DNA of 64,000 nucleotides from Mangrovivirga cuniculi. GTDB lineage: Bacteria; Bacteroidota; Bacteroidia; Cytophagales; Cyclobacteriaceae. This document shows positions 2,032 to 61,814 of the stretch, in pieces. The stretch covers positions 3,288,001 through 3,352,000 of the forward strand of contig NZ_CP028923.1 of the NCBI RefSeq assembly GCF_005166025.1. Reading direction: 5' to 3'. Positions within the stretch are counted from its first letter, which is position 1, and the number at the start of each line of letters is the position of its first letter. Under the pieces are notes generated by a model that was not told the DNA's origin, made no database searches, and worked only from the letters and a program-made list of their open reading frames with translations. The position numbers were made by a program, and so were the translations under genes.

Positions 2032-2556
2032 ATGTTAGGCATAAACATAAAATTACTTCAAATAAGAAATTCCCAGCTGGTTAAATCACAATATTCAAAC
2101 CGGCCAAATCCTTCGTTCAGAAGTGCGAAAAACATTGGAGTAATTTTCACAATGGAGGGAAAAGAAAAGTTCACTGCTGTAAAATCTTTTGTCAAACAGT
2201 TGAATGAAATGCAAAAAAACGTAGAAGTATTGACCTTTGTTCCTAAAACTGAAGAGAATTACGAATTTAAATATGACTACTTTTCTGAAAATCATCTATC
2301 ATTTACTGGTATAATAGAGGCAGAAGAAGTTAAGAAATTTGAAAAGCAACCCTTTGATTATTTATATTTGCTTGATTTTAGTACTAATCCCTTTGTTAAA
2401 AATGTGGTGTTAAAATCAAATGCCGTTTCAAGAGTAGGTTTTTACACTGATGAAAACAGTCAGATTCTTGATTTTATGATCAATGTATCTGATAAGAATT
2501 ACCCCAGGGAATTTGAAGAATTATTAAAGTATACAAAAGATTTAAATCATCAATGA
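2032..2556 (+). CDS. DUF6913-like hypothetical protein
   Basis: A soluble protein of 174 residues without signal peptide or membrane segment. It resembles the small Bacteroidota family DUF6913, which I recall being found next to dapA; this assignment is from memory of the family and context, not a search. Visible features are a basic N-terminus, then an alternating beta/alpha pattern (IGVIFTMEGKEKFTAVKSFVKQL) and a YLYLLDFSTNPFVKNVVLKS stretch. It starts 4 nt after the ligA stop and its last bases overlap the dapA start (ATGA), so the three genes are probably co-transcribed. A later start at 2152 (MEGKEKF) is possible but would remove the conserved-looking NRPNPSFRSAKNIGVIF segment. Function unknown. 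Confidence 0.75.
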   Translation: MLGINIKLLQIRNSQLVKSQYSNRPNPSFRSAKNIGVIFTMEGKEKFTAVKSFVKQLNEMQKNVEVLTFVPKTEENYEFKYDYFSENHLSFTGIIEAEEVKKFEKQPFDYLYLLDFSTNPFVKNVVLKSNAVSRVGFYTDENSQILDFMINVSDKNYPREFEELLKYTKDLNHQ

Positions 2557-3440
2557 GCGATCAATTAAAAGGCACAGGTGTAGCGCTGGTAACGCCAATG
2601 ACCAGTGATAAAAAAGTAGATTTTGAAGGGTTAGGGAAATTACTTAAATATACTCATAAACGAGGCGTCGATTACTGGGTAGTTATGGGAACTACCGGTG
2701 AAACAGCCACTCTAAATTCAGATGAAAAAGCATCTGTACTCTCTTTTGTAAAAGAAAATAATCCGGACAATGTACCAATAGTTTATGGGATTGGTGGCAA
2801 TAACACTTCAGATGTTATACAGGAAATCAGAGATACTGATCTTAATGGTGTGGATGCTATTTTATCTGTCAGCCCTTATTACAATAAGCCTTCCCAGGAA
2901 GGTATATTCAGACATTATTCTGCCATAGCAGATGAAAGTCCTGTACCGGTAATCTTATATAATGTTCCCGGTAGAACATCATCAAATCTGACATCTGATA
3001 CAACTTTAAGGCTTGCTGATCATGACAATATAATTGGCGTCAAAGAAGCTTCAGGAGATCTTTTCCAATGTATGAGGATAGCAAAACATAAACCTGCTGA
3101 CTTCTTACTCATATCAGGAGATGACGGCCTGACCCTGCCTATTTATAGCATTGGAGGAGTCGGGGTAATAAGTGTGCTTGCGAATGCCTACCCTGGAGTA
3201 TTTAAAAGAATGAAAGAGGCCTATTGGAATTGTAATTTTGAAGCTGCCCAAAATGAGGCTTATAAATTAACTGAAGTAAGTCCATTAATGTATGTAGAAG
3301 GAAATCCGGTTGGAGTTAAACAGGCCTTAAAAATATTGGGAGTTTGTGATAATTATGTCAGGCTACCATTAGTTGAGTGCTCTGAATCACTTGCTGAGAA
3401 TATAGAGCAGGCTATGAAAGATGCCGGATTACTTGAGTAA
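2553..3440 (+). CDS. dapA: 4-hydroxy-tetrahydrodipicolinate synthase DapA
   Basis: Condenses pyruvate with aspartate semialdehyde, the committed step of diaminopimelate/lysine synthesis in the cytoplasm. The 295-residue length is standard for the TIM-barrel family. Diagnostic motifs are GTTGE (residues 46-50, substrate-binding threonines), Y136 in YNVPGRT and the Schiff-base lysine K164 in GVKEASGD. The start overlaps the stop of the preceding gene by 4 nt, consistent with translational coupling in a ligA-DUF6913-dapA group. No terminator hairpin is evident directly after the stop; the BIME-like repeat array begins about 90 nt downstream. Confidence 0.97.
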   Translation: MSDQLKGTGVALVTPMTSDKKVDFEGLGKLLKYTHKRGVDYWVVMGTTGETATLNSDEKASVLSFVKENNPDNVPIVYGIGGNNTSDVIQEIRDTDLNGVDAILSVSPYYNKPSQEGIFRHYSAIADESPVPVILYNVPGRTSSNLTSDTTLRLADHDNIIGVKEASGDLFQCMRIAKHKPADFLLISGDDGLTLPIYSIGGVGVISVLANAYPGVFKRMKEAYWNCNFEAAQNEAYKLTEVSPLMYVEGNPVGVKQALKILGVCDNYVRLPLVECSESLAENIEQAMKDAGLLE

Positions 3441-3530
3441 TAGTATGCTAAGAAAGTTATTATAATAAACTGGAGGTTATCATAAAATGATAGCATCTAT
3501 TGTTTATATTTTGACCCAAAACTTAAAATG

Positions 3531-3925
3531 CCGTGGTACGTGTCCTCACGGACCACATCAAGTACTAGGAGGGTACGTTCCAGGTTTAATGTTCCGTTTC
3601 GTGAAGACACGGACCAGGGCGTATCACCACAAAGCCGTGGTACGTGTCCTAACGGACCACTTCAAGTATTAGAATGGGATGTTACATGTATGTTCTGTTT
3701 CGTGGAGACACGAACCAGGGCGTATCACCACAAAGCCGTGGTACGTGTCCTCACGGACCACTTCAAGTATTAGGTAAATATGTTCCTGGTATGTTCCGTT
3801 TCGTGGAGACACGAACCAGGGCGTATCACCACAAAGCCATGGTACGTGTCCTCACGGACCACTTCAAGTATTAGGTAAATATGTTCCCGGTATGTTCCGT
3901 TTCGTGGAGACACAAACAGGGGCGA
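3531..3925. repeat. BIME-like palindrome array, left part (four units of 101-104 bp)
   Basis: Four near-identical units. Each carries hairpin A (arms GTGGT-A-CGTG / CACG-G-ACCAC around loop TCCT, starting at 3533, 3637, 3738 and 3839) and hairpin B in the opposite sense (TTCGTG / CACGAA around GAGA). The apex of A is GTGTCCTCAC; B read on the other strand is GTGTCTCCAC, so the two are inverted members of one REP-like family. Hairpin A has a constant A-G mismatch in the stem, recalling the bulge of enterobacterial REPs. Short open frames here repeat every unit and look spurious. The array ends in divergent sequence before the RAYT gene. Confidence 0.85.
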
Positions 3926-4085
3926 TGGTTAATTACGCTTGCCTGGTGCAAGAACACTCTAAGGGCTCGATATAGACACTCTCGATTCAATTACTTACCA
4001 CCAATACCGTAACCACTTCAAATAACAGGCTAGATTTCACTTAATGTAGAAAAGAAATGAATGAATCCATCCTTACTCTATACTA

Positions 4086-4634
4086 TCACAATTCATCTCG
4101 AATATCTTTTAAAAAAGAGAATTCATTAATTCCTTCTAAATAATATCTTGCTGAACTATACTTATAATCTGCTGGATTTTGTACTAAAGCATAATTTTCA
4201 GTCACCGGGTTATTATGAATGTAATCCAATTTCTGATTTATAACATCTATTGAATATACTGGTACAGCCAAAGGATCCCTTTGCCAAAACTCGTAAGACT
4301 TATTCACTTTTTTGACCTTGTACTTATTAAGCTCTTTACTGTTTTCAACAAGTAACTTCTTTTTAAATTGATGAGCTGTATACTTTAAAAAAGAACCTTT
4401 AACTGATTCCTTTCCATTGTCTTCATTGATTCTCCAAATTAAATGGATATGATTTGGCATTATTACAAAGGAAAATACGTCAATTTTATTATGTGAACTT
4501 AAAAAGCCCAGAGAATCAATAATAATTTCTTTATAACCATCATGTAATAATAGATTTTGCCACTTATTTATGGAGGCAGTCCAAAAATATATTTCTCCTA
4601 GTTTGATAGTTGAATTTCTTTGAATCGAAGACAT
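4086..4634 (-). CDS. REP-associated tyrosine transposase (RAYT, Y1 HUH family)
   Basis: A single-strand DNA transposase-like nuclease of the Y1 (IS200/IS605-related) superfamily, 182 residues, the normal RAYT size. The HUH metal site is H62/H64 in MPNHIHLIW. The candidate catalytic tyrosine is Y138 in KLDYIHNNPV, a motif typical of RAYTs, followed by DYKYSSARYY. RAYTs recognise REP hairpins and are thought to mobilise or maintain them as single-copy, host-tamed enzymes. Here the gene sits between two halves of an array of palindromes and is transcribed opposite to the neighbouring dapA, which fits that role closely. No frame damage is seen. Whether it is still active cannot be judged from sequence. 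Confidence 0.92.
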   Translation of the reverse strand: MSSIQRNSTIKLGEIYFWTASINKWQNLLLHDGYKEIIIDSLGFLSSHNKIDVFSFVIMPNHIHLIWRINEDNGKESVKGSFLKYTAHQFKKKLLVENSKELNKYKVKKVNKSYEFWQRDPLAVPVYSIDVINQKLDYIHNNPVTENYALVQNPADYKYSSARYYLEGINEFSFLKDIRDEL

Positions 4635-4764
4635 TTTATATTGAAGGTGATAGAGGTAATTAGATATTTGAACTGAAAATAATAATCATTGATATGTATA
4701 TGAAGCAATAAACGGCTAAGTGAAATTAATTTGATGTCTTGGTTCATGCATTACTACTTTAAAC

Positions 4765-5483
4765 ATTAGAATGATATGTTACATATGTATTCCGTTTCGT
4801 GGAGACACGAACCAGGGCGTATCACCACAAAGTCATGGTACGTGTCCTCACGGACCACTTCAAGTATTAGGTAAATATGTTCCCGGTATGTTCCGTTTCG
4901 TGGAGACACGAACCAGGGCGTATCACCACAAAGCCGTGGTACGTGTCCTCACGGACCACTTCAAACATTGGAATTAGATGTTACATGTATATTCCGGTTC
5001 GTGGGGACACGAACCAGGGCGGTTGGGGTTGTTTCCGTTTCGTGGAAACACGAAACAGGGTGGATGTTAATTCCGTTAGTCCGCTTCAAGAATACTTTAA
5101 GGACACAAAAGATACTCTCCATACACCTACTACCATGAATGCCGTGGTACGTGTCCTCACGGACCACTTCAAGTATTAGGTAAATATGTTCCCGGTATGT
5201 TCCGTTTCGTGGAGACACGAACCAGGGCGGTTAGGGTTGTTTCCGTTTCGTGGAAACACGAAACAGGGTGGATGTTAATTCCGTTAGTCCGCTTCAAGAA
5301 TACTTTAAGGACACAAAAGATACTCTCCATACACCTACTACCATGAATGCCGTGGTACGTGTCCTCACGGACCACTTCAAGTATTAGGTAAATATGTTCC
5401 CGGTATGTTCCGTTTCGTGGAGACACGAACCAGGGTGTATCACCACAAAGCCGTGGTACGTTTCCTCATGGACCACTTCAAAC
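4765..5483. repeat. BIME-like palindrome array, right part, with a 208-bp internal duplication
   Basis: The unit seen left of the RAYT gene continues here in the same orientation. Hairpin A occurs at 4835, 4936, 5144, 5352 and, degenerate, at 5453; hairpin B recurs between them. At about 5010-5217 and 5218-5425 a longer 208-bp unit is directly duplicated. It adds a variant hairpin with stem TTTCGTG around GAAA and a unique stretch (ccgcttcaagaatacttt...). Spacings of 101 and 208 bp show that the array grows by whole units. No protein-coding gene is supported in this stretch. Confidence 0.85.
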
Positions 5484-5498
5484 ATAAGACTTTATAAA

Positions 5499-5524
5499 CA
5501 AAAAAAGGACATCAAATGATGTCC
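5499..5524 (-). terminator. Rho-independent terminator of the PglF-like gene
   Basis: On the minus strand a perfect GGACATC/GATGTCC stem (5507-5524) is followed by a run of seven T. It lies about 30 nt beyond the stop of the dehydratase gene and separates it from the palindrome array. Confidence 0.85.
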
Positions 5525-5553
5525 CTTTGCTATATCTACTATTTTTAATAGTA

Positions 5554-7496
5554 TCAATTTATATTCAATCGATAAGAAATATCTTTTCTATCAAGAATTT
5601 CAAATTTGGAAGAGTTACTCTTGTATTCGGGTACGATCGCTTTCATCATACTAACTACGAGCATATCGTTCCTTTGATCTACAGCCATCTTTAGCTTTTT
5701 AAACTGTGTTTCTATACGATCAAAGTTATATTCCCTCACTTTAGCGATCATGATTTTCTCATGGTGAGTAGGAAGGGTATTTTCTTTAGTATTTAATAAT
5801 TCTTCATAAAGCTTCTCTCCTTCTCTCAAACCAGTATAAACAATTTCGATATCAACATTTGGTTCAAAACCTGAAAGTTTGATCATCTTTTTAGCCAGAT
5901 CCACTATTTTTACGGACTCTCCCATGTCAAATAGGAAAATTTCTCCACCATGACCCATCACTCCCGCTTCCAATACAAGTTGGCAAGCCTCCGGAATTGT
6001 CATAAAATACCTGGTAATATCAGGGTGTGTAACTGTTACAGGACCACCTTCCTTAATCTGTTGTTTAAAAAATGGAATTACAGAACCATTAGATCCAAGC
6101 ACATTGCCAAATCGAGTGGTAATAAATGCTGTATCAGATAAGTCATTCTCCTTGACATGATTGCTCAAGGACTGAACATAAATCTCTGCCAATCGCTTAC
6201 TTGCCCCATAACTGATGTTGGATTCACAGCTTTATCTGTGGATACCATCACAAACTTTTCAACTTTATATTTCACGGCGAGATCAGCAACATTCTTAGTT
6301 CCAAATACATTGGTAAATATTGCTTCAACAGGATTATTTTCCATTAAAGGCACATGCTTATAGGCAGCGGCATGAAATATTATCTCAGGATTGTGTTCAT
6401 CAATCACATCCTCAAGCCTGTCGATATTTGAAATATCACAAATGACCGAACAAGCCCTGTTAAATTTATTTTTATCCTTTATCTCTCTTTCGATTTCGTA
6501 GAGCGGTGATTCTGCCTGATCTAATAAAATTATCTCTCTCGGAGCTAACCTGGTAAGCTGTCTGACAATTTCAGAACCAATACTACCCGCAGCCCCTGTT
6601 ACAAGAATTTTTTTATCATAAATAGATTCTGCTACTTTACCATTATTCAGTTTAATACTGGCTCTTCCTAACAAGTCTTCGATCTTAACTTCCTTGATCT
6701 GTTTTACAGTCAATTCACCTTTCACCCATCTTTCGACCGGAGGAATTGTCATCACTTTAAGATCATTTTTTAAGGCCAGATCAACAATGTGGTTCTTTCT
6801 TTCAAGAGGAAGATTTTGAATTGCAATGATCAATTGATCATATTTATGTGCTTTAAATTCCGCAGTTTCGAAAAATTTGTCGGGACAAAATACCCCTACT
6901 CCATTGATAACCTTATTCCACATATAGGAATCATCATCAAGAAAAGCCCCTACCCTTGTGTTTTGCTTTTTATCATTGACCAGCAAATCTTTAGTAGTAC
7001 GACCCAGCTGGCCGGCACCGAAGATCACAACATTTCTGATTGAAGATTGCTTTGTCGAAAGTATTGTAAAGATATTTTTCACCAGTAATCGGTAAAAAAA
7101 CAAAAGCAAAAACGAATTCAGAAAAGTTATAATGATTACCGAAATGGGAATCACATTCGTGGTTTTACCAAGAAATGTTTGATATATGAAATTAAAAAGG
7201 AATGAAATACCCAGATTAATCAGGACAGCATAGAATATCCTTAACCCATCATGCAGACCGGTATATCTTACGATTCCGGCATAACTGCGGGTAAGAATTA
7301 TAGCCACACATGCTCCAGCAACGGACACTAATAGTCCTATTGTGAAATCGTGTGTGAGTAGTTGTTCAAAATCAAAATTGAACCTTAATAAGTAAGCTGA
7401 AAATGCGGCGATGGCTACTAAAGTCAAATCAATGAACAATATGATCCATCTAGGCAATATTCTCAGCCTATCAAACAGAGTATAAACGTTTCGCAT
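5554..7496 (-). CDS. Membrane-bound nucleoside-diphosphate-sugar 4,6-dehydratase (PglF/WbpM/CapD-like), frame broken near 6204-6207
   Basis: Predicted to dehydrate UDP-GlcNAc to the 4-keto-6-deoxy sugar, first step to a bacillosamine-type sugar. The first frame (7496-6165) has four N-terminal membrane segments, a CoA-binding-like Rossmann domain (VIFGAGQLGR), then the catalytic SDR domain with GAAGSIGSEI and STDKAVNPTSVMG. The second frame (6192-5554) carries the rest. One missing G in a GGGG run (6204-6207 on +) breaks it; restoring it gives VMGASKRLAEIYVQS, the SMK-type active-site signature of PglF and WbpM. The rebuilt length of about 646 residues is normal. It lies 24 nt downstream of the PID-CTERM-like gene. 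Most likely intact in the organism. Confidence 0.92.
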
Positions 7497-50749: not shown

Positions 50750-50773
50750 ATATGATTGGTTGTTAATTTTAAT

Positions 50774-50833
50774 CTGGTTCGTGAAGACACAAACCAGGGC
50801 GACAGAGTTCTGGTTCGTTAGGACTCAAACCAG
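50774..50833. repeat. Two tandem REP-like hairpins with CTGGTT stems
   Basis: 50774-50797 has CTGGTT arms with apex GTGAAGACAC; 50810-50833 has the same arms with a degenerate apex GTTAGGACTC. Both are followed by AGGG as are the B hairpins of the RAYT array, so they probably belong to the same family. Confidence 0.7.
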
Positions 50834-50880
50834 GGTAACAGAGTTTCATCGTGGTGTGCCCAAAAATGCTAAACTTATTG

Positions 50881-55046: not shown

Positions 55047-55940
55047 GTGAATAGTTATTAGTTAATGGTTATTGTTTGAGCATCCCACTAATAACTATTC
55101 TCTAATAACCAATAACCTATCTTCAAACTGCCATCATTGTCTTCGTCCTTTGGAAACGGTAAAAACAGATCTAAGATCCTTTTACATTTTAACTTACGAA
55201 ATACGCTATCGCTAACATTTCGAAGAGCAGTTAAATTGCGTCAGCAATTTCCTCCGTGTCCTTTGCGTTCTCTGTGGTAAAGATTTAAACAGCTTGATGT
55301 TTTTCTTTCAGACCTTAGAGTCTGTGCGGTGATATTTTGTTTTAGGTGGTGTGAATAATTATTGGTTAATGGTTATTGTTTGAGCATCCCACTAATAACT
55401 ATTCTCTAATAACCAATAACCTATCTTCAAACTGCCATCATTGTCTTCGTCCTTTGGAAACGGTAAAAACAGATCTTAGATCCTTTTACATTTTAACTTA
55501 CGAAATACGCTATCGCTAACATTTCGAAGAGCAGTGAAATTGCGTCAGCAATTTCCTCCGTGTCCTTTGCGTTCTCTGTGGTAAAGATTTAAACAGCTTG
55601 ATGTTTTTCTTTCAGACCTTAGAGTCTGTGCGGTGATATTTTGTTTAAGGTGGTGTGAATAAATATTGGTTAATGGTTATTGTTTGAGCATCCCACTAAT
55701 AACTATTCTCTAATAACCAATAACCTATCTTCAAACTGCCATCATTGTCTTCGTCCTTTGGAAACGGTAAAAACAGATCTTAGATCCTTTTACATTTTAA
55801 CTTACGAAATACGCTATCGCTAACATTTCGAAGAGCAGTGAAATTGCGTCAGCAATTTCCTCCGTGTCCTCTGCGTTCTCTGTGGTAAAGATTTAAACAG
55901 CTTGATGTTTTTCTTTCAGACCTTAGAGTCTGTGCGGTGT
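55047..55940. repeat. Three tandem copies of a 304-bp non-coding unit
   Basis: Copies start at 55047, 55351 and 55655, with a few substitutions between them. Each unit contains an AT repeat (TAACCAATAAC type), a CGAAAT/ATTTCG hairpin with a 14-nt ACGCTATCGCTAAC loop, and a CTTTGCGG-type module with an AAACAGCTTGATGTTT near-hairpin. The last copy runs into sequence shared with the phytase terminator region. No open frame or coding signal is seen in this 1.1-kb gap (54918-56024). Confidence 0.92.
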
Positions 55941-55966
55941 ATTAATAAGATAATTAGTGGTATATT

Positions 55967-56825: not shown

Positions 56826-57211
56826 ATCTAGTTTTGGTTTGGTTTGATTTTCAACTTATCTTAAAAATAATAATCAAGGAGAAAATTTGATAATATTGAG
56901 GTGGTTTTTACATGAGTGGTTAAGCAATCACTTAGGCAATTGTTGAAGTATATGAAATAACTTCTCATTCATTTTTGTCTTGACAGTATTTCTGCTTGGC
57001 TGTGTCTCCACAGGCAAGGTAATCTATCAATTCGGATCACAGATCCTATGATAACAGTACGACATTGCAAATGTCGAACAGCTGCTTTTTATTGAGAAGA
57101 TTCTTAAATCAACTAATATAACATAATTATTCAATGCTCTTTGGAATTTGCAATTCCGAAGCCTTATCCTTGGATTTGTAATCCATTGTTTACATTAAAA
57201 TTTTGTTTTTT
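56826..57211. other. 386-bp intergenic region with palindromes
   Basis: No gene seen. It contains the REP-like and TGY-loop hairpins listed at 56995-57184. Confidence 0.6.
56995..57184. repeat. REP-like hairpin plus four TGY-loop hairpins
   Basis: One REP-like hairpin at 56995-57018 (stem CTTG-x-CTGTG/CACAG-x-CAAG, loop TCTC, G-G mismatch) followed by stems with a three-base TGY/RCA loop: 57034-57046 (GGATC), 57061-57075 (GACATT), 57143-57157 (GGAATT), 57172-57184 (GGATT). The same order recurs inside 60791-61773. Confidence 0.75.
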
Positions 57212-60735: not shown

Positions 60736-60790
60736 GGAACAGATTTGAGAGTGAGGGTGAGAGTGTGAAGATCCGGTTTACTTGCCTATG

Positions 60791-61773
60791 CTTGACTGTG
60801 TCTCCACAGGCAAGATGATTTAGAAGGCAGGAACATTTGAAACCAGAGACTGCTTTTATACATTTCAGGTGAGGACACCTGAAATCAGAGGCTGATATGA
60901 TATGATAATTCTATTGAAGCAGCAGGAAAATATCCCTCTTCAATTCAAAATACTGCCTATGCTTGACTGTGTCCTCACAGGCAAGGTGATCTATCGATTC
61001 AGATCACAGATCTTTTAATAGCAGTTACACATTGCAAATGTCTAACAGCTGCTTTCCTTTATGAGATTACCCTGATTCATTCGAAGTTCCTACTTTCAGC
61101 GTTACAAACGCTGTTCTCAATCCACCCTCGTTACGCTGCGCTAAACAAGGGCGATGGGGCATTTTATAGATTGTATCATCTATAATTGATGAATCTCTAT
61201 TCGACAGATTAAAATATGCACATTCATATAAAGAATTGCTAAAAAAATAAAAGCTGTTATCGTCCTCGTTTGCAACGAGGATGTGTGAGGTTGGCGATTG
61301 TATCGCCGAAAAAAAGGTCTACTTTCACATTTCAGGTGAGGACACCTGAAATCAGAGGCTGATGTGATATGATGATTCTATTGAAATGGCAGGGAGTATC
61401 TCTCTTCAATTCAAAATACTGCCTATGTTTGACTGTGTCTACACAGGCAAGGTGATCTATCGATTCGGATTACAAATCCTATGATAAAAGCACGACATTG
61501 CAAATGTCGATCAGCTGCTTTTAATTATGAAGATTCCTAAATTAACTGAGATTACATAATTCTTTAATGCTCTTTGGAATTTGCAATTCTGAAGCCTTTT
61601 TCATGTTGACATTTCATGTGGAGACACATGAAATCAGAGGCTGTGTTTACATTTCAGGTGAGGACACCTGAAATCAGAGGTTGATGTGATATGATGATTC
61701 TATTGAAGCAGCAGGAAAAATCTCTCTTCAATTCAAAATACTGCCACAGCTTGGCTGTGTCTCCACAGGCAAG
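60791..61773. repeat. Dense palindrome array (two alternating hairpin families)
   Basis: REP-like GTG-TCYY-CAC hairpins lie at 60791-60814, 60863-60884, 60962-60985, 61330-61351, 61428-61451, 61612-61633, 61652-61673 and 61750-61773; stems are of CTTG-CTGTG, TTTCAGGTG or TTTCATGTG type. TGY-loop hairpins lie at 61001-61013, 61029-61041, 61097-61113, 61264-61280, 61293-61307, 61467-61479, 61494-61508 and 61577-61589. Sequences between hairpins, such as ctattgaagcagcaggaaaa, also repeat. This fills nearly the whole 1.1-kb gap between kdsC and the Hc1-like gene; no gene is supported in it. Confidence 0.88.
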
Positions 61774-61814
61774 GTGATCTAATGAAATCAGTAACTACAT
61801 TTAAAATTATGCAA

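Follow-up and report, generated by a model that had tools for sequence, protein, structure and literature searches.

A RAYT gene and the hairpins around it, lying between dapA and an epimerase gene of Mangrovivirga cuniculi, very probably form a RAYT/REP system ('REPtron') of Bacteroidota type that works in the manner proposed below. The hairpins share a foot and loop kept across one clade of RAYT enzymes. The window, that is, the whole stretch of DNA analysed, comprises 64,000 nt at positions 3,288,001-3,352,000 of a single-contig genome of 4,661,901 bases, and unlabeled coordinates refer to it.

The intergenic region between dapA (2553-3440), on one side of the array, and the gene of an epimerase-like protein for nucleotide sugars (the epimerase gene) spans ∼2.1 kb (3441..5553) and holds both the array and the RAYT gene (4086..4634, minus strand), an open frame of 182 aa. 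To the left of the gene, a tandem array at 3530..3921 has 3.9 units of 101 bp, each with a plus-strand A hairpin followed by a minus-strand B hairpin; distances are 58 nt from A to B and 43 nt from B to A, which gives the alternation and regular spacing of REPs that characterize a BIME. The right tandem array (4756..5021) has 2.6 units of 101 bp, and 2.4 units of 208 bp occupy 4933..5435, each consisting of A, B, a second B-like hairpin whose foot strand has the loop TTTC, and a spacer. Nine A and 11 B hairpins are found at up to 3 mismatches, with a mean of 0.00 in 100 shuffled sequences. The first A hairpin (3532..3556, plus strand) has the foot GCC, and the others start at 3636, 3737, 3838, 4834, 4935, 5143, 5351, and 5452; one B hairpin lies at 3796..3823 (minus strand, with the foot CGCC on that strand), and the others start at 3594, 3695, 3897, 4792, 4893, 4994, 5035, 5202, 5243, and 5410, with the TTTC loop on the foot strand in the copies at 5035 and 5243. 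The window contains 25 occurrences of the apex GTGTCYYCAC, where 0.12 would be expected; 7 of the 9 A and 9 of the 11 B hairpins have it in exact form. The first-pass annotation, made from the sequence letters, was right in proposing a RAYT with cognate hairpins in a BIME-like tandem array, and its nine A and about eleven B hairpins with a common apex are all recovered. The extent that it gave, 3531-5483, also holds, except that repeated sequence runs on to about 5492, and its units of ∼101 bp do lie on both sides of the gene, but part of the array is built of the 208-bp unit with its extra B-like hairpin and spacer.

Both flanks of the gene are made of array sequence. The 3' flank (3928..4029) is a diverged copy of the spacer of the 208-bp unit that ends in an A hairpin with a deleted apex (local alignment score of 72; best of 200 shuffles, 37), and the 5' flank (4753..4800) corresponds to the A-to-B spacer of an array unit (score of 64; best of 200 shuffles, 29). 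If the decayed A copy is counted, an outward-facing hairpin pair encloses the RAYT gene, and the same is seen in relatives, for example at L061, L063, L065, L090, L091, L103, L105, and L108. In both ligA (16-2027) and the epimerase gene (5554-7496), the reading frame is broken in two, by sequencing indels or real frameshifts; the epimerase pieces form a single frame in a congener (L255). Elsewhere in the window, three near-identical tandem units of 304 bp (98% matches) occupy 55047-55943.

The protein has the HUH pair H62/H64, W117-Q118, and the catalytic Y138, in the motifs NHIH, WQ, and YIHNNP and with an HUH-Y spacing of 77, in agreement with the intact HUH and Tyr motifs of a Y1 transposase read earlier. 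H62, H64, and Y138, the Y1 HUH core, are invariant in all 31 aligned RAYTs, as is K84, the equivalent of E. coli K82. Window residues H62/H64, K84, H88, W117, Q118, and Y138 align with H59/H61, K82, H86, W94, Q95, and Y115 of the E. coli enzyme, and K84 and H88 sit on the helix that matches its DNA-reading helix. The NCBIfam model NF047646 (REP_Tyr_transpos) matches residues 11-160 with 77.2 bits, against a cut-off of 80, and an E value of 1.2e-21; it also matches 31 of 31 aligned relatives at an E value of 0.001. Pfam Y1_Tnp gives 19.5 bits against a cut-off of 23. Seven NF047646 matches are found in the window's own genome: five pass the cut-off, the window gene falls just short of it, and L007 is weak (29.7 bits). 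The AF2 model has a mean pLDDT of 93, and its top PDB match is 4ER8, the E. coli RAYT (Foldseek E value of 3.2e-9); in structure comparison, the Z score is 14.4 for 4ER8 and about 10 for IS200/IS605 enzymes. Thg1-like folds (Z of about 8) were also considered, and we read their similarity as a common palm-like fold rather than kinship. With an NF047646 score just below the cut-off, the window protein is judged to be a RAYT by its Y1 HUH core, a predicted fold nearest to 4ER8, and the recurrence of its hairpins.

A tree of 51 RAYTs assigns the window enzyme to a 29-member clade (support of 100/100) in which two members are identical. Within 1 kb, an exact GTG-TCYY-CAC hairpin with at least 5 of 7 lower pairs accompanies 24 of these 29 and none of the 22 RAYTs outside, which include the own-genome paralogues L001-L005. 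Dropping the pairing filter gives 96 apex sites, of which 87 form 5 or more of the 7 lower pairs, over the 114,614 bases of the 29 clade loci and none over the 108,743 bases of the 22 outside loci; the reversed apex pattern, used as a control, is absent from both sets of loci. At the five exceptions the hairpin is the same but its loop or tip differs: L096 and L104 have the loop TCT, L102 and L107 the loop CCCY on a GTC/GAC tip, and L093 both TCCA and TCTG. Hairpins of the sister enzymes L067, L068, L110, L112, and L114 have TTNN loops. The clade extends beyond the family list to Pedobacter aquatilis (L059), Niabella ginsengisoli (L066), and Sphingobacteriales MAGs (L061, L062). Duplicates, fragments, unread frames, and members of another family (L007, L058, L060, L064, L072, L079, L082-L085, L109, L111, and L113) were dropped before the tree was built; among them, L058, L060, L064, L072, L079, L082, and L084 do carry the apex. 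The RAYT paralogues of the window's own genome were considered as users of these hairpins and rejected, with no exact apex at L001-L005 or L007; L001 and L004 have hairpins of their own types on both sides.

The general plan of the hairpins is a GCC foot, a 10-bp stem, and a loop mostly of 4 nt. In the predicted fold of the A hairpin (3530-3560, −9.6 kcal/mol, z of −3.6), the stem contains the A-G mismatch that the first-pass annotation had pointed out. Folding, which it had suggested as a check, bears out A, but the B hairpin alone folds no better than shuffled sequences (3790-3830, z of −0.9). Stem evolution was analyzed in 88 distinct hairpins from 99 sites at clade RAYT loci, in which the three tip pairs and the loop pattern are invariant by search design. 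Their foot letters are G in 77, C in 76, and C in 76, mostly as NGCC. Stem cells are paired in 92.4% of cases, a value raised by the preselection for at least 5 of 7 lower pairs, against 29 to 40% in slid controls. Cells with a double change number 152, compared to 38.9 after shuffling, with none of 500 shuffles as high, and two-sided changes are seen in seven of the ten stem pairs. Compensatory changes in the stem together with a constant foot indicate that the lower stem is conserved for its pairing and the foot for its sequence. These hairpins have neither the GT[AG]G at the 5' foot of canonical REPs (GTAG class) nor the CGTC, TGTC, or CCTC foot of CGTC-tagged repeats.

Copies of the hairpins are dispersed over the genome. 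At an E value of ≤0.1, with 150 of 470 candidates scored, our model R1 gave at least 47 matches, 19 in the array and 28 outside; none of the 26 outside copies with sequence lies inside an open reading frame of at least 100 aa, compared to 256 of 400 random places. The flanking hairpins of this RAYT therefore recur extragenically in its genome, as those of RAYTs do. The dispersed copies are B-type, single or directly repeated; one lies in the window at 50769..50802 (minus strand, GCC CTGGTTTGTG TCTT CACGAACCAG; R1 E value of 3.9e-7) beside a degenerate direct copy, within a tandem repeat at 50773-50845. The genome-wide search proposed earlier, in which a lack of further hairpins would have told against the first-pass annotation, found B-type hairpins dispersed (at least 28 outside the array), but A-type hairpins in the array alone, with none outside it among 95 exact apex sites and 26 of the 28 outside R1 matches. 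No inverted neighbor accompanies any of the 28 dispersed matches among partners strong enough for the model, and the closest dispersed pairs, 45, 130, 210, and 360 nt apart, are all on the same strand. The REPIN arrangement claimed by the first-pass annotation consequently fits the array but not the dispersed copies, where the inverted pair is not the unit.

Two other hairpin families, C (ATTTCAGGTG-TCYY-CACCTGAAAT) and D (CTTGACTGTG-TCYY-CACAGGCAAG), have the A/B tip but a TG foot. They form inverted pairs 38 to 42 nt apart at seven places in the same genome, and in the window C/D hairpins lie at 56990-57025, 60780-60900, 60955-61000, 61325-61360, 61605-61690, and 61745-61785. Some adjoin hairpins of the type found beside paralogue L001.

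In 148 genomes of the family, searched with R1 at an E value of ≤0.01 and up to 47 candidates scored per genome, at least 62 have matches. These comprise all 23 genomes whose clade RAYT is placed on the tree and 39 of the 125 others (Fisher P = 1e-10). The figure for the 23 is partly built in, hairpins next to these RAYTs having served to train R1, and some of the 125 may hold clade RAYTs off the tree, such as G103 (L285). By hand comparison, the R1 count exceeds the number of exact-apex sites at the RAYT locus in all 23 genomes (in G059 by one). At L285, the RAYT frame of 238 aa seems to contain an in-frame tip-type hairpin at about 1080; in-gene hairpin insertions are reported for subclass 2.4 (PMC6006769).

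Fourteen R1-rich genomes (G001, G021, G036, G043, G048, G057, G065, G070, G072, G097, G098, G108, G121, and G143) have 6 to 83 matches each and no clade-profile score above 134 bits. On this scale, full-length clade and sister enzymes reach at least 196 bits, outsiders reach at most 125, and broken clade copies score 46 to 138, so that remnants of clade RAYTs are possible in these genomes. The 30 RAYT loci taken from them show no exact apex (0/30). Hairpins that R1 recognizes can therefore persist or spread without a detected intact clade RAYT, and one reading of these orphans is that the enzyme was lost or decayed after the spread. One of these genomes, with no clade RAYT detected, has a 127-bp tandem array of tip-type hairpins (L192, G097:C9:186847-187261).

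Such orphan hairpins, like the position of dispersed copies outside long open reading frames, would also be expected if the hairpins were RNA elements, terminators or 3'-end stabilizers maintained by selection on transcripts, with the RAYT as a bystander. We consider this quite improbable: an Rfam search of 3400-5600 at an E value of ≤0.1 gave no match, the loop changes with the RAYT clade, and the exact apex stands beside one RAYT clade and is absent beside others.

The hairpins could also be moved by something other than a RAYT, either an IS200-like transposase (subclass 1.2-like) or a DDE element carrying them as MITE passengers, and for this we see very little chance. A neighbor of one hairpin locus in G043 suggested an IS200-like mobilizer for the genomes lacking a clade RAYT, an idea that we rejected; one IS200-like gene does adjoin three such hairpins (L161/L225), but the apex occurs at just 1 of 30 IS200-like gene loci, and the gene has no match in the window's own genome or in its two congeners. 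A MITE-like element of ∼100 bp with the ends TATACTACGGTAC and GTACCGTAGTATA and two tip-type hairpins inside is present in G098 (L176-L189, L194, and L195). In the 16 copies retrieved, the hairpins are its passengers and direct repeats of 9 bp flank it, judged by eye to be exact in 13 and to differ at one position in 3. No MITE ends were seen by eye around the window array.

The history of the site was followed in the two congeners (L255 and L256), whose dapA-epimerase gaps measure about 67 and 79 bp by tblastn ends and contain neither an exact-apex hairpin nor a RAYT match (2/2). Relatives with the array but free of the RAYT at this site would, by the first-pass annotation, have counted against the association, and both congeners lack array and RAYT there. 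Their own clade RAYTs are located elsewhere in their genomes; identity to the congeners is 90 and 84% for dapA and 69 and 58% for the RAYT. An empty site in both points to an insertion in the lineage of the window or to a loss in both others. One congener, G063, is Mangrovivirga halotolerans (Cytophagales), with its RAYT at L058/L087; the gene next to that RAYT has no match in the window's own genome.

Binding, nicking, mobility, and the mode of array growth we infer for the RAYT/REP system as follows. The hairpins would extrude in single-stranded DNA, for which replication is the usual moment in the superfamily. On the folded strand, the RAYT would bind the GCC foot and the tip loop, with K84 and H88 of helix 78-97 placed near the loop; Y138 would nick beside the foot and rejoin ends, thereby copying or moving hairpins. 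The lower stem would be needed chiefly as a stem and would drift by compensatory change; stems free to drift would then differ among genomes, with the loop kept per enzyme clade. With the gene inside an outward-facing pair, exchange or slippage among near-identical units could yield the 101-bp and 208-bp arrays. That these near-identical units, which do resemble products of slippage or recombination, are a plain slippage-grown tandem repeat with the RAYT there by chance is hardly credible, since related RAYTs of other genera adjoin the same hairpin kind, mostly in just 2 to 5 copies.

Within the proposed RAYT/REP system, one residue may have a part in the choice of loop. Across the 203 columns of an alignment of 31 RAYTs, residue 88 scores best against loop class and is uniform within each class, with H for loops starting in TC (24/24), Q for TT (5/5), and S for CC (2/2). 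It lies four residues past K84, and the equivalent of K84, E. coli K82, contacts a REP base from helix α3 (PMC8266576). The prediction was fixed before we retrieved 30 further RAYTs, 25 of which have H, Q, or S at this position. Under a strict GCC foot rule, six genes were scorable and all six were as predicted. The foot was then relaxed to two of three letters and 9 of 10 pairs were required, the pairing threshold being set by hand after the output had been seen, which gave 14 scorable genes, with 11 H/Q/S genes left without a scorable hairpin. Ten were correct (L267, L268, L269, L272, L277, L278, L282, L283, L285, and L289), one was mixed (L290, TCA and GCA), and three were non-hits, namely, L273 (H, GCT), L275 (Q, TGC), and L280 (Q; the strand chosen by foot reads ACAA/AAAA, the opposite one TTGT/TTTT). 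Lowering the threshold to 8 of 10 pairs makes L270, L276, and L279 scorable as well, all non-hits, giving 10 of 17. Five genes with another residue had no prediction: L274 (Y, ACT), L295 (K, TGC), L291, L293, and L294. The TTGT loops of L278 stand on quite different stems. Counter-cases are L093, outside alignment A2, which has R88 with the loops TCCA and TCTG, and the window itself, where 2 of the 11 B copies have a TTTC loop.

On a tree of 47 rows that left out L275, L280, and L290 (scorable but not clean) and L295, there are three independent pairs on starred branches, of which a mean of 1.7 agree, 0 oppose, and 1.3 show no difference (sign test P of 0.5 to 1). Kin enzymes share their states and there are about two independent switches, so the sign test cannot reach significance here. 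We therefore put forward only tentatively, and with considerable doubt, a code in which residue 88 of helix α3 reads the first two loop bases (H for TC, Q for TT, and S for CC), the GCC foot identifies the strand, and the stem drifts freely. As a proposal drawn from sequence comparison, the loop code appears worth testing; the case for residue 88 as the determinant falls short of proof.

The kind of system is known, since Bacteroidetes RAYTs with atypical hairpins are already published in PMC6006769, where TnpAREP subclass 2.6, equal to Bertels group 5, is mostly from Bacteroidetes and has hairpin copies elsewhere in the genome. The first-pass annotation's view of a gammaproteobacterial arrangement newly met in Bacteroidota does not stand for this reason; an earlier survey, by its own criteria, had RAYTs with abundant REPs in gammaproteobacteria only (PMC2817692). 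By its description, the window enzyme fits subclass 2.6: its NHIH, WQ, and YIHNNP motifs, 182 aa, and Cytophagales host agree with the NH[LIV]H, WQ, and YIH[QN]NP motifs, median of 179 aa, and phylum given in PMC6006769, and its HUH-Y spacing of 77 differs from the median of 82. Subclass 2.6 hairpins lack GT[AG]G, as do those described here. The enzyme subclass, the phylum, the absence of GTRG, and the recurrence of hairpins are thus already known from that paper. Its passages on subclass 2.6 give no consensus for these hairpins, for which the window and its relatives show a GCC foot, a 10-bp stem, and a clade-set loop.

The E. coli RAYT/TnpAREP with REP y/z (4ER8; PMC8266576) has the same fold, as judged from the predicted model, and its REPs also have a foot and a stem mismatch, the latter in A only here, but that foot is GTAG and not GCC. 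In the group 3 REPtrons of Stenotrophomonas and Marinomonas, loop bases decide activity in assays (PMC8266576), and these systems differ in their GTAG foot and enzyme group. On the loop contacts, the same paper states "we can only speculate" and points to helix α3. CGTC-tagged repeats (PMC3733652) are likewise short palindromic repeats with Bacteroidetes among their hosts, but they have a CGTC, TGTC, or CCTC foot, stems of 8 to 9 bp, and no association with a transposase gene. The inverted pairs and tandem units, flanks included, beside a RAYT recall the REPINs of P. fluorescens SBW25 (PMC3116915), unlike which the dispersed copies here are single or direct B hairpins. Among openly readable papers on RAYT, REPIN, and TnpAREP, we saw none that gives the GCC foot or the loop code.

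On how a RAYT chooses its hairpin, the many natural enzyme-hairpin pairs of one group assembled here separate the constant parts (foot and loop) from the free one (stem). With one residue of helix α3 singled out, the question can be reduced to a one-residue swap assay: if the code is true, exchanging residue 88 should change the enzyme's target, and enzymes of the clade should accept hairpins from other members even when the stems are very different. R1 provides a search model for Bacteroidota REPs, with matches in at least 62 of 148 genomes of one family, where PMC6006769 used manual inspection for subclass 2.6. What is new is the combination of a constant foot and loop with a free stem, which may allow the hairpin of each enzyme to be predicted.
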